Source of the DNA: Phycisphaerae bacterium
GTDB lineage: Bacteria; Planctomycetota; Phycisphaerae; Sedimentisphaerales; Anaerobacaceae
DNA length: 45,054 bases
Assembly: GCA_012744475.1 (NCBI GenBank)
Contig: JAAYBV010000013.1
Span: 1 to 45,054 of the forward strand
Direction: 5' to 3'
In this document: in pieces, positions 7 through 44,693 of the stretch
Layout: each line of letters begins with the position of its first letter
How positions within the stretch are numbered: the first letter of the stretch is position 1
The notes under the pieces: generated by a model
Databases searched by the model: none
What the model was told of the DNA's origin: nothing
The model's input: only the letters and a program-made list of their open reading frames with translations
Made by a program: the position numbers and the translations under genes

Positions 7-104
7 TCCCGATGGCCATCGGGAGAGCAAGGCGGAGTCTGCCGATGGCTTCGACGGCACGCGTATCACCATCGGCAAGCCTGCGCTTGCCGCTGCCACA
101 CGGC
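7..104. repeat. REP-like composite (family A plus a TCCCGATG palindrome)
   Basis: A perfect palindrome, TCCCGATGGCCATCGGGA, occupies 7-24. A hairpin follows at 69-99: CCATC, stem GGCAAGC (74-80), loop CTGC, stem GCTTGCC (85-91), then GCTGCCAC. Between them, 28-49 looks like a partial third copy ending in GCCGATGG. The same hairpin with a GAAA loop recurs on the other strand at 44663-44693, and the 18-base palindrome recurs at 44618-44635, so this is a dispersed family. The rest of 1-285 holds no convincing gene. Confidence 0.7.
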
Positions 105-187: not shown

Positions 188-221
188 CCATCCCCAAACG
201 CGGCGCGTTTGAGGCTGCCAC
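188..221. repeat. REP-like hairpin, family A
   Basis: CCATC, then a stem near CCCCAAACGC (192-201) pairing with GCGTTTGAGG (204-213) with one mismatch, then GCTGCCAC (214-221). The flanks match the copies at 2274-2314 and 18104-18133 while the hairpin centre differs, which is the mark of this family. Confidence 0.7.
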
Positions 222-2179: not shown

Positions 2180-2226
2180 GTGGCAGCCTCAAACGCCTTG
2201 GTCCCGATGTCCATCGGGAGGGATGG
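2180..2226. repeat. REP-like repeat, family A (inverse orientation)
   Basis: Reads GTGGCAGC (2180-2187), CCTCAAACGCC, then the palindrome TCCCGATGTCCATCGGGA, and GGATGG. Its reverse complement matches the copies at 188-221 and 2274-2314 at both ends. It faces the next copy across about 47 bases, forming an inverted pair like an enterobacterial BIME. Confidence 0.7.
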
Positions 2227-2273: not shown

Positions 2274-2314
2274 CCATCCCCAATCCCGATGTGCATCGGG
2301 ATTGAGGCTGCCAC
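2274..2314. repeat. REP-like repeat, family A
   Basis: CCATCCCCAA, the palindrome TCCCGATGTGCATCGGGA, then TTGAGGCTGCCAC. It is the partner of the inverted copy at 2180-2226. The spacer between them contains ACCTGG and CCAGGT, a further possible stem. The 2013-2402 gap otherwise holds nothing recognisable. Confidence 0.7.
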
Positions 2315-16003: not shown

Positions 16004-16167
16004 ACCTCGCCCTCGCCCATTTTCCCGTCACCGGTTCGGCCGCTTCGGGAGGTGCTGGCCGTTTTAGCCGTTGCCGGGAGGCGGCACCACCGATAGAATG
16101 ACTGGGACCACACGAGCGGTTCCACGAGAGCCCTTGCGTGGGTGGGGAGGGTGAATGGAGGGACGCG

Positions 16168-17109
16168 ATGGGACGAGTGCGAGAAATGATTAGCGTGGAT
16201 GGTCGGGAGTGTTGGACCCTGTTCGACACGGGGGTCCGCAGCACCTACGTCCTCAATGTGGTGACGGACAAGCTCAGAAGTACAGCGACGTTCCATCCGA
16301 TTCGCACCGCGTTAGGCGGCGGCGTGAAGGAGAGTACTTGTACGGCATTGCTCCAGGCGGAGGTCCAAGGCCATCCTGTCTCGACTCATGCCCTGGTTGT
16401 GGACGAGATCGGCAAGGACGAAGACGGCCGATGCATCGAGGTTCTGTTCGGTGCGCTCGCCATGCGGCAGTGGGGCATCCGCCCCGTCCCCGAGGAAGGG
16501 CGTCTCGACCTGAGCCATTACCCCGAGCAATTCGCTGAGTTCCCGCCTGCGTGGTCCGATACACCGGCAGGGGCGCGTCAGACAGGCAGACTGGAGATCG
16601 ATTCATCGGCTTTCGATCAGGTGTCTTTGCACGACGTTCGGATCTACGGGTGGTTCCAGTATAGAGAGCAGTACGAGGTCAACCTTGTTCTCGATATCGA
16701 TTATCTCGCCGAATGGAATCTCCTTCCGGACAACCGCTTTGACTTCATCGTTGTGCCGGCGACGTTGACGTTCCTGGATGTGGTCGATCTCCAAATCGAC
16801 CTGAACTGGGGCGCATCGCTCCGTCGCGAGGAACCCTCCGGAGTCATCTGCTCTTCTGCGGGCGAACTGGAGATCAATGATTTCCGGCGGTTCGCCTACA
16901 CGGATCCTGTCTATACGGAACGATCCTATCTGCACTACGAATTGGGCCTCTGGCAGCCGCAAGGTGGGCGGATCAGTCTCGGGGCGAGGGGTTTCAGAAT
17001 TGTAGGCAGGCAGGAGGGCGTGCGCTCCGACCGGCAGACCTTCGATCCGGCCCAGAGGGTTCCTCTGAACACCGTGAGGGACGGGAGAAGTGAACCAGAC
17101 GGACATTGA
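16168..17109 (+). CDS. Retropepsin-like domain fused to an unknown domain
   Basis: 313 residues. Start is the ATG at 16168, six bases after GGAGG; the frame is open further upstream without a better site. Residues about 1-125 resemble a bacterial retroviral-type aspartic protease: WTLFDTGVRSTYV carries the DTG triad, followed by strands ALLQAEVQGHPVSTHALVVD and a terminal VLFGALAMRQWGI block. Such domains work as dimers. The C-terminal half, from TGRLEIDSSAFDQV to the end, is nearly the same protein as the next gene product (conserved blocks LDIDYLAEW, LTFLDVVDLQI, YTDP and GRISLGA). I do not recognise this second domain. No signal peptide is seen. Protease activity is uncertain because the usual small residue after DTG is Val here. 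Confidence 0.6.
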   Translation: MGRVREMISVDGRECWTLFDTGVRSTYVLNVVTDKLRSTATFHPIRTALGGGVKESTCTALLQAEVQGHPVSTHALVVDEIGKDEDGRCIEVLFGALAMRQWGIRPVPEEGRLDLSHYPEQFAEFPPAWSDTPAGARQTGRLEIDSSAFDQVSLHDVRIYGWFQYREQYEVNLVLDIDYLAEWNLLPDNRFDFIVVPATLTFLDVVDLQIDLNWGASLRREEPSGVICSSAGELEINDFRRFAYTDPVYTERSYLHYELGLWQPQGGRISLGARGFRIVGRQEGVRSDRQTFDPAQRVPLNTVRDGRSEPDGH

Positions 17110-17186
17110 CGGCGATAGCATCGACGGCTACACACTGGCGATGCAGCAATTTTCCGTCGTTTGACGCATCGACAGGAGTACGTCGG

Positions 17187-17687
17187 ATGAGCAAACTGGA
17201 GATCGATTCATCGGCTTTCGATCAGGTGGATTTGCATGATGTCGATGTTTACGGGTTCTTCTTGCAGAGGCGGGGGTCCGAAATCAGCCTCATTCTCGAC
17301 ATTGATTATCTTGCCGAGTGGACTCTTCTTGCGAACAATCATTTTGAGTACCTTGTCGCGCCGGCGGCTCTAACGTTCCTGGATGTGGTTGACCTTCAGA
17401 TCCATCTGGACTGGGGTCCCTCGCTGCGCAAAGAGGAGCCGTATGGAGTTATGGACAATTTCTCGGGTGAGATATCGATCTATGATTTCCGCCGGTCTGC
17501 CTATACGGACCCCATTTATACCGAACAATCCTATCTTCGCTACGAATTGAACTTCTCGGTGCCGCTCGACGGGCGGATCAGCCTTGGGGCGAAGGACTTC
17601 ACCATCGTAGGCCGGCAAGACCTCATACGTTCCGAGCATCGGAACCTTGATCCTGACCAGAGGCCTCCCCTGATCCTGGGCGGTTGA
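17187..17687 (+). CDS. Hypothetical protein, paralogue of the preceding C-terminal domain
   Basis: 166 residues. AGGAG lies eight bases before the ATG. It begins MSKLEIDSSAFDQVDLHDV and aligns along its whole length with the C-terminal half of the preceding protein (16168-17109). Shared blocks include LDIDYLAEW, LTFLDVVDLQI, SLRKEEP against SLRREEP, DFRR, YTDPIYTEQSYLRYEL, GRISLGAKDF and IVGRQ. Codons for the first residues are nearly identical too, so this is a recent tandem duplication in which one copy acquired or kept a protease-like domain. The sequence looks like a compact all-beta fold with no membrane segment. The family is unknown to me. An immunity or inhibitor role would be speculation. 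Confidence 0.65.
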   Translation: MSKLEIDSSAFDQVDLHDVDVYGFFLQRRGSEISLILDIDYLAEWTLLANNHFEYLVAPAALTFLDVVDLQIHLDWGPSLRKEEPYGVMDNFSGEISIYDFRRSAYTDPIYTEQSYLRYELNFSVPLDGRISLGAKDFTIVGRQDLIRSEHRNLDPDQRPPLILGG

Positions 17688-17702: not shown

Positions 17703-17865
17703 ATGGACATCAACTACGGCAAGATCCGGTGATTGCACCGTAGCGCTGCTTTATCTGGTCACATCTGAGGGCAACTGTGGGGCGCGGGCCATGGAGTTGT
17801 TCGAACATCTCTTCGCCAGGGCGGGAGGTAGTGGGCCGAAGGAACGATTTACGATGGTCGAGTGA
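17703..17865 (+). pseudogene. Broken small gene, DUF6429-like remnant
   Basis: AAGGAGG at 17687-17693 leads to ATG at 17703, which reads MDINYGKIR and stops at 17730-17732. A +1 shift at that stop continues in an open frame of about 45 codons, DCTVALLYLVTSEGN, then ARAMELFEHLFARAG, ending at TGA 17863-17865, which overlaps the endonuclease V GTG as GTGA. ALLYL near the N-terminus and ELFEHLF near the C-terminus are what I recall of DUF6429 proteins, whose central part (with a WK..DW block) is missing here. This suggests both a frameshift and an internal deletion. A programmed frameshift or sequencing error is the alternative. Family assignment is from memory. Confidence 0.4.
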
Positions 17866-18620
17866 GGGCGGTTAGGGTGCCGAAACTGCACAAATGGGAC
17901 CTGTCGTATGCGGAGGCGCGGGCGGTTCAGACGCGTCTGGCGGAGAAGGTGCGGTTCGAGCCGTTTAGGAAGCAGCTCGAAATCGTCGCGGGGCTCGATT
18001 GTGCGTTCACGGGAGGCGGCAAGCGGATCGTTGCGGCGGTCGTCGTCCTGCGACGGGTGCGCGCCTCGACTGCAAAGGAGTCGGACGTCGTTCAGAAGAG
18101 ACGCCATCCCCAAGCTGCGCTTGAGGCTGCCACCCAGGTTTTGTTCGAGTTGGTCGAGACCGCCAGCGCCACGATGGACGTGACGTTTCCTTACATTCCC
18201 GGCCTGCTGTCGTTCCGTGAGGCGCCCGCTTGTCTGGCGGCGGTCGCGAAGCTCGAAAGCAGGCCCGACCTGTTCCTGATCGACGGGCAGGGGGTCGCGC
18301 ATCCGCGTCGACTGGGTCTGGCGGCGCATCTGGGGCTTTTTCTCGACAGGCCCACCATCGGCTGCGCCAAGAGCCGCCTGATCGGCACGTTCGAGGAACC
18401 CCGAGCGGCGAAGGGAGCGCACAGTCCTCTATACGATGGCGACGAGATGATCGGCGCCGTCGTTCGCACGCGGACGAAAGTCAAGCCGCTGTTCGTCTCT
18501 GTGGGGCATCGCTGCACCCTCGATGACGCAATTGCCCTGACGCTGGCCTGCACCACGAAGTACCGGCTGCCCGAGCCGACGCGCCTGGCCCACCAGACGG
18601 TCAGTGGCCTGAAACATTGA
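17862..18620 (+). CDS. nfi: Endonuclease V with an in-frame repeat insertion
   Basis: 252 residues against about 220-230 usually. Endonuclease V cleaves DNA (and RNA) one base 3' of deoxyinosine. The metal-binding acids are Asp46 (AGLDCAF), Glu120 (SFREAP) and Asp141 (LIDGQGVAHPRRLG), with the lesion-wedge motif PYIPG at 110-114 and His217. Between VVVLRR and VETASATMDV there are about 25-30 residues more than in E. coli Nfi. That stretch contains a family A repeat (18104-18133) encoding HPQAALEAAT. The insertion falls in the loop before the YIPG strand and leaves the active site intact. Start is GTG at 17862, overlapping the preceding TGA; another in-frame GTG at 17877 is possible. It converges on the fucosidase gene. 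Confidence 0.85.
   Translation: MRAVRVPKLHKWDLSYAEARAVQTRLAEKVRFEPFRKQLEIVAGLDCAFTGGGKRIVAAVVVLRRVRASTAKESDVVQKRRHPQAALEAATQVLFELVETASATMDVTFPYIPGLLSFREAPACLAAVAKLESRPDLFLIDGQGVAHPRRLGLAAHLGLFLDRPTIGCAKSRLIGTFEEPRAAKGAHSPLYDGDEMIGAVVRTRTKVKPLFVSVGHRCTLDDAIALTLACTTKYRLPEPTRLAHQTVSGLKH
18104..18133. repeat. REP-like repeat, family A, inside endonuclease V
   Basis: CCATCCCCAA, a short hairpin centre (AAGC/GCTT with loop TGC), TTGAGGCTGCCAC. The ends are identical to the intergenic copies at 188-221 and 2274-2314. It is translated in frame as residues about 82-91 of endonuclease V. Confidence 0.7.
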
Positions 18621-44617: not shown

Positions 44618-44693
44618 TCCCGATGGCCATCGGGACGCCGCCCTTACGCTGCCAAGCGCCGGGTGGCAGCGGCAAGCGAAAGCTTGCCGATGG
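44618..44693. repeat. REP-like composite, family A plus TCCCGATG palindrome
   Basis: The palindrome TCCCGATGGCCATCGGGA (44618-44635) is identical to that at 7-24. A hairpin follows: GTGGCAGC (44663-44670), GGCAAGC, GAAA, GCTTGCC, GATGG (to 44693). It is the reverse-strand equivalent of 69-99. Confidence 0.7.

Follow-up and report, generated by a model that had tools for sequence, protein, structure and literature searches.

The endonuclease V gene (nfi) of this Phycisphaerae genome encodes an extra loop which is shown here, by comparison of sequences, to derive from a REP doublet whose family is present in high copy number. The insert is likely to be a translated passenger of the spread of that family, with one arm present in nfi before the species of the genus split and a second arm gained later in the species that supplied the window (the whole 45,054-nucleotide stretch that was analysed).

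A REP doublet within the endonuclease V gene

The features of the window to which the text refers are the following.

69-99, reverse strand: copy of a sister REP family
188-221, forward strand: REP family copy, a pattern match with both ends identical to the nfi copy
2180-2226, reverse strand: REP family copy adjoining 2274-2314 in opposite orientation, the fourth copy in the window
2274-2314, forward strand: REP family copy with both ends identical to the nfi copy
17862-18620, forward strand: endonuclease V gene (nfi), intact frame, 252 aa, with a GTG start in the ORF list and other starts possible
18057-18133, forward strand: REP doublet (BIME/REPIN-like) of 77 bp, in frame and covered by residues 66-91 (VRASTAKESDVVQKRRHPQAALEAAT)
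18057-18090, forward strand: older REP arm, decayed, GTGCGCGCCTCGACTGCAAAGGAGTCGGACGTCG, located where nfi of five same-genus genomes has its arm
18091-18103, forward strand: linker of 13 nt between the arms
18104-18133, forward strand: intact REP arm of 30 bp, CCATCCCCAAGCTGCGCTTGAGGCTGCCAC, in opposite orientation to the older arm
44663-44693, forward strand: copy of the sister REP family

By its profile matches, its acidic residues and its predicted fold, the ORF at 17862-18620 is an endonuclease V (EndoV). In a profile search it matched PF04493 (Endonuclease_5) at 3e-71 with 239.6 bits (cut-off 23.4); it scored 250.6 bits against NF008629, above the cut-off of 230, and 259.4 against the lineage model NF041102, below the cut-off of 300. 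The preliminary description of the window had claimed an open frame that keeps Asp46, Glu120 and Asp141, and both parts of this claim are borne out: the 252-aa ORF is open, and in an alignment of 24 sequences E120 and D141 are invariant and D46 nearly so. The catalytic role of these residues we take over from T. maritima EndoV. Compared with that enzyme (2w35), the predicted fold gave a Z of 35.7 and an rmsd of 1.4 over 221 aligned residues, and D110N and E89Q mutants are named in titles among the structure-comparison matches. Outside the loop, dN/dS between nfi of the window's genome (G000) and of its relative G004 was 0.12, indicating purifying selection on the gene that carries the insert. 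Just upstream of nfi, two adjoining ORFs (window 16138-17687) encode similar proteins with LEIDSSAFDQV.LHDV in common and apparently represent a local duplication.

Between residues 63 and 95 the window EndoV has a loop of 31 residues against 4 in the solved T. maritima chain, an excess of 27. The preliminary view of a single insertion of 25-30 residues does not stand, since same-genus orthologues already hold an arm of about 12 codons. In the AlphaFold model (mean pLDDT 90.6) the REP-encoded insert forms the turn that joins strands 55-66 and 94-106, with pLDDT below 50 at residues 70-82 and 84-90. Structure prediction, proposed earlier as a check on the loop, therefore places the insert outside the conserved and confidently predicted EndoV core, as a disordered turn that links two strands.

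The intact arm was correctly described: its two ends are exactly those of the copies at 188-221 and 2274-2314, and it is read as HPQAALEAAT (residues 82-91). What had been missed is the older arm at 18057-18090, which faces the other way, so that the element extends over 18057-18133. This decayed arm has 23 matches over 34 ungapped positions with the REP arm, a score exceeded at just two places on both strands of the window (26 and 27 matches). The 77-bp doublet can be aligned with an intact one of 78 bp from another place in this genome (G000:C27:91007-91084) and has an identical layout. Its arms are 13 nt apart, compared with mostly 46-47 or 14 nt in other doublets of the genome, and the second, inverted arm stands at a normal doublet spacing from the old one. 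The predicted fold of the 77-nt doublet was weaker than that of the intact doublet elsewhere in the genome (-29.5 kcal/mol, z -1.55, versus -55.2, z -8.6), as the decay of its older arm leads one to expect.

The REP family across the genome

A genome-wide search with the pattern CCATCCC...GAGGCTGCCAC returned 182 matches in 5.75 Mb (80 forward and 102 reverse), a figure in which a few places appear two times, since nested matches are entered separately (three such pairs are visible); the same pattern read backward gave 0 matches in the whole genome. The repeat proposed from the window alone is thus dispersed genome-wide, and its addition of residues to EndoV in an intact ORF is confirmed. The exact 30-mer of 18104-18133 occurs at least 10 times in the stretches of this genome that were examined, the nfi copy included. 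At least 171 copies were listed (159 plus 12 from a looser listing, which beyond contig 47 covers the stretches examined); among them were 41 neighbouring pairs less than 300 nt apart, 40 of which have the -+ arrangement. Twenty-six of these 40 are spaced 46-47 nt and five are spaced 14 nt, the regular spacing by which they are read as REP doublets. The end of the studied repeat reads GTGG when checked against the tags of the GTAG and CGTC superfamilies. One near-identical doublet subtype is cut by the ends of at least 12 contigs (L122, L128, L132, L138, L146, L159, L173, L174, L200, L207, L212 and L220), a sign that the family has undergone a recent burst and is undercounted.

One RAYT-type gene was found in the genome (L139:1650-2216; NF047646, 101.9 bits, cut-off 80). 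Its immediate flanks (L139:1492-1597) hold a sister REP family, GTGGCAGCGGC...GCCGATGG, rather than the studied one. The sister family, also written GTGGCAGCGGCAAGC...GCTTGCCGATGG, has both ends in common with the studied family and numbers at least 22 strict copies in the stretches examined (24 counted, with L139 scanned twice). The studied family is probably mobilised by a RAYT-type transposase.

Copies within genes were identified by codon log-odds on 210-bp flanks (score above 5 and no stop), together with reading of translations and profile matches. Of 130 clusters 106 were scored, 24 lying too near the end of a stretch, and about nine of these appear to lie in frame within genes; the clusters are thus mostly outside genes, the remainder having no gene annotation. 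Five of the nine passed the automatic rule, Nfi among them, and L170, L199, L144 and L182 were added by hand after their translations had been read. A plain census by ORF length was rejected as a measure: in this GC-rich DNA 166 of the 182 copies are covered by an ORF 100 aa or longer. The clusters within genes, a list that the preliminary description had proposed, are:

Nfi
apolipoprotein N-acyltransferase (Lnt), where one profile match spans the repeat
FAD oxidoreductase
ABC permease, with matched domains on either side
zinc-finger/DUF4139 protein
M56 peptidase
tail of a ParA-like protein
two proteins with no Pfam match

Folding energy per base did not differ between these and the other clusters (p 0.69). 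Intact doublets were rarer within genes (1/9 versus 47/97, Fisher p 0.038), a comparison given no weight as the in-gene list is partly hand-picked. A clear copy of the repeat peptide was found in none of the four (of five) same-genus genomes that cover the place in Lnt (G002 had no match), nor in any of the four that cover it in the FAD oxidoreductase (pieces from G001 miss it), leaving Nfi as the only one of the three checked proteins with a genus-wide arm.

Two further observations concern in-gene repeats. At L182 (G000:C60) a repeat at 1501-1534 and the DNA downstream of it form a doublet in the reading frame used in nfi, VAASTPKELGMAPTAHHPQAAIETAT, within a gene that has no Pfam match; its right arm is the decayed one, versus the left arm in nfi. 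Short ACGAGCG-type repeats also lie in frame in protein genes at L142 (about 2782) and L182 (about 941), are read as TSDERPATSD and RATSDERR, and resemble those in EndoV of other genera.

The loop in related genomes

Endonuclease V is present in 46 of 61 genomes, that of the window included, and the alignment has 46 rows, two of them fragments. The preliminary account was open to refutation by relatives with the same residues and no nucleotide repeat; none was found among the 46 rows, across which loop lengths vary widely. In all five other same-genus genomes searched, a single REP arm lies in frame at the same place in nfi, facing opposite to the intact arm of the window. Its DNA reads GTG GCA GCC TCA AC. 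CC. AAG G.G TTG GGG ATG GC, with close variants, and its peptide VAASTPK(E/A)L(G/E)MA, or VASSIPKELGMA in G003. Two of these arms are exact matches to the REP pattern (G001:C380:23035-23068 and G005:C10:12928-12961). The window EndoV is 16 codons longer than these orthologues. As the arm occupies the same place in all five, it most likely entered nfi before they split, judging from the aligned genes; dS across the same-genus genomes that retain it reaches 1.35. An earlier reading, by which all 77-78 bp of the doublet arrived recently in a single insertion, was dropped, since the same-genus alignment shows its left half to be the older orthologous arm.

In an nfi DNA tree with the loop removed, G000 pairs with the one-armed G004 (support 97/94), and this pair joins G001 and G005 (97/94). 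Given that pairing, a single later gain of 16 codons is simpler than repeated losses. The same tree places G036 and G029, from two other genera, among the members of the genus (82/83). A protein tree of 40 rows joins G000, G004 and three genomes of other genera (G029, G042 and G007) in a single polytomy, next to which G036 branches off (97/84), and a protein clade test did not reject monophyly of the genus (p-AU 0.35). Because the trees do not yield a clean genus, we infer the order of gain and do not regard it as proven.

Synonymous sites in the arm are more alike among the five relatives than those elsewhere in nfi (72 of 92 comparable pairs identical versus 1037 of 1733), and 3 of 206 twelve-codon windows of nfi reach the identity of the arm. 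This modest excess may leave room for a hairpin role, for recent spread or for conversion. Stem partners covary, reading ACTCC/GGAGT in G004 and ACGCC/GGCGT in G001 and G005, a change that on one side alters Glu to Ala. The arms of two relatives fold better than shuffled sequences (z -3.0 and -3.8).

EndoV loops of other genera also contain repeats. In G036, from another genus of the same family, TGTAGCCCAGCCGCCCTCGGCTGGGAGACTGACACCCCCGAGGGTGGGGGTGCCACA lies in frame in the same turn. With at most one mismatch, GGTGGGGGTGCCACA has 62 matches in the genome of G036 (control 2); the sole exact copy is the one in nfi, nearly all others reading GGCGGGGGTGCCACA, and a hairpin, ACCCCCGAGGGCGGGGGT, stands in front of the repeat in 10 of 11 other loci examined, some of them overlapping. 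In two genomes of another family, G055 and G059, a CTTCGACAGGCTCAGGAC-like insert occupies the turn before strand 55-66; CTTCGACAGGCTCAGGAC was found at 13 places in G059 and at 2 in G055, where its status as a repeat is weak as one of the two is nfi itself (control 0). ACGAGCC-type repeats occur in a third EndoV turn, near residue 193, in several genera. Their pattern is found at 5 to 41 places per genome in five genomes (controls 0 to 3), and the places include nfi in four of the five; the third-turn insert of G008 is absent from the ACGAGCC-pattern matches in that genome. The idea that dispersed repeats have landed again and again in EndoV loops of this order seems to us quite doubtful. Were it true, the cause could be that inserts that modify EndoV are favoured, or that the machinery of the elements meets repair genes more often than by chance.

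Explanations for the insert and known systems

The insert in nfi is most likely a tolerated passenger and not a functional part. A REP would have entered nfi as REPs enter the space between genes, probably mobilised by RAYT. The first arm would have added about 11 codons over short-loop relatives with the frame kept; in the window's species it would then have decayed, and a second, inverted arm would have added 16 codons more. The insert probably survived because its lengths kept the frame, it held no stop and its place was a turn of freely variable length. Counted for this account are the 182 matches against a control of 0, the arm in five of five genus members (two of them exact pattern matches), the pairing of G000 with the one-armed G004 in the DNA tree, the constraint on nfi, the predicted disorder of the turn, about eight other in-frame loci, the lack of a clear repeat peptide in relatives' Lnt and FAD oxidoreductase, and the RAYT gene. 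Counted against it are the synonymous excess in the arm, the sister family at the flanks of RAYT, trees in which the genus does not come out cleanly, and the other repeat in the same turn of G036, since a repeat of another family in the same place is less well predicted by pure accident.

The synonymous identity of the arm, its paired stem changes in G004 versus G001 and G005, and the folding of two relatives' arms above shuffles would also fit an arm kept for its hairpin, in DNA or mRNA, with the palindrome selected within the gene and the protein merely tolerating it. We regard this as improbable, as the older arm of the window's species is itself decayed, the doublet there folds far less stably than an intact one, and the synonymous excess is modest. 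Retention of the arm throughout the five genomes at a dS of up to 1.35, together with a repeat of a second family that occupies this turn in another genus, could likewise point to an insert taken over by the protein, its longer loop altering substrate binding or partner contacts of EndoV; predicted disorder, residues that differ by lineage and the wide variation in loop length over 46 rows make this very improbable. As for a REP match by chance or an ordinary lineage-specific loop, loop lengths do differ freely among other genera, but exact 30-bp copies elsewhere, a control of 0 against 182 matches, and exact REPs in nfi of two relatives reduce its probability to almost nothing.

A different order of events has the complete doublet entering once in an ancestor, with the right arm then lost from the other species. 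The REPIN model treats the doublet as the unit that moves; nfi of the window shows the linker and spacing of a doublet, and branching within the genus is not resolved in the protein tree. If G000 pairs with G004, this course requires several independent losses with similar borders, versus one gain, and we consider it rather unlikely. Under the preferred account, in which a translated passenger gained its second arm later, one-armed relatives, and short-loop relatives further out, document step by step how a mobile palindrome came to form part of a conserved repair enzyme. Natural variants of this one small enzyme allow a direct test of whether repair proteins that carry REPs are altered by them or simply tolerate them. 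REPs of Planctomycetota are thus also intragenic and can mislead protein alignment and annotation.

A survey of intragenic REPs by Di Nocera and colleagues provides a close precedent for such insertions. Its main text reports that ORFs of several species contain REPs and dimers of REPs, often in replication or repair genes, that dimers or groups encode 20-30 residues, and that in two Xanthomonas species recB carries different REPs at roughly one and the same site (BMC Genomics 2013 14:522, PMC3733652). That main text does not mention endonuclease V or nfi, and a literature search found no paper joining 'endonuclease V' with 'repetitive extragenic palindromic'. The preliminary description had called a palindromic repeat within a repair enzyme rare, with Rickettsia as the known parallel; in view of the intragenic REPs in the main text of PMC3733652 and the roughly eight further in-gene loci found here, this was too strong. 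Rickettsia palindromic elements (Ogata et al. 2000), in the passages that treat them in PMC10969869 and PMC3733652, are rickettsial and about 150 bp long. The nfi element resembles them as a palindromic repeat in frame in unrelated protein genes and is set apart from them, on that description, by its arms of 30-34 bp, its 77-bp doublet and a host whose nearest named relatives are Phycisphaerales MAGs.

REP/BIME/REPIN systems with RAYT, as portrayed in PMC3116915, PMC2817692 and PMC8266576, share with the present family its copy number, its inverted doublets at fixed spacing and a RAYT gene, which here is flanked by the sister family. The intragenic GTAG/CGTC REPs in the main text of PMC3733652 likewise occur within ORFs, also as dimers and in repair genes. 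The end of the repeat studied here differs in reading GTGG; GTRG variants of the tag are reported in that text, with GTGG in most GTAG-20 elements of O. terrae. Relative to the REPs described there, one nfi arm is common to the six genomes of the genus searched, decayed in that of the window, and the passage from single arm to doublet can be read. REPs in repair genes are thus already known, and what is new here is the case of nfi with its unusually readable history.
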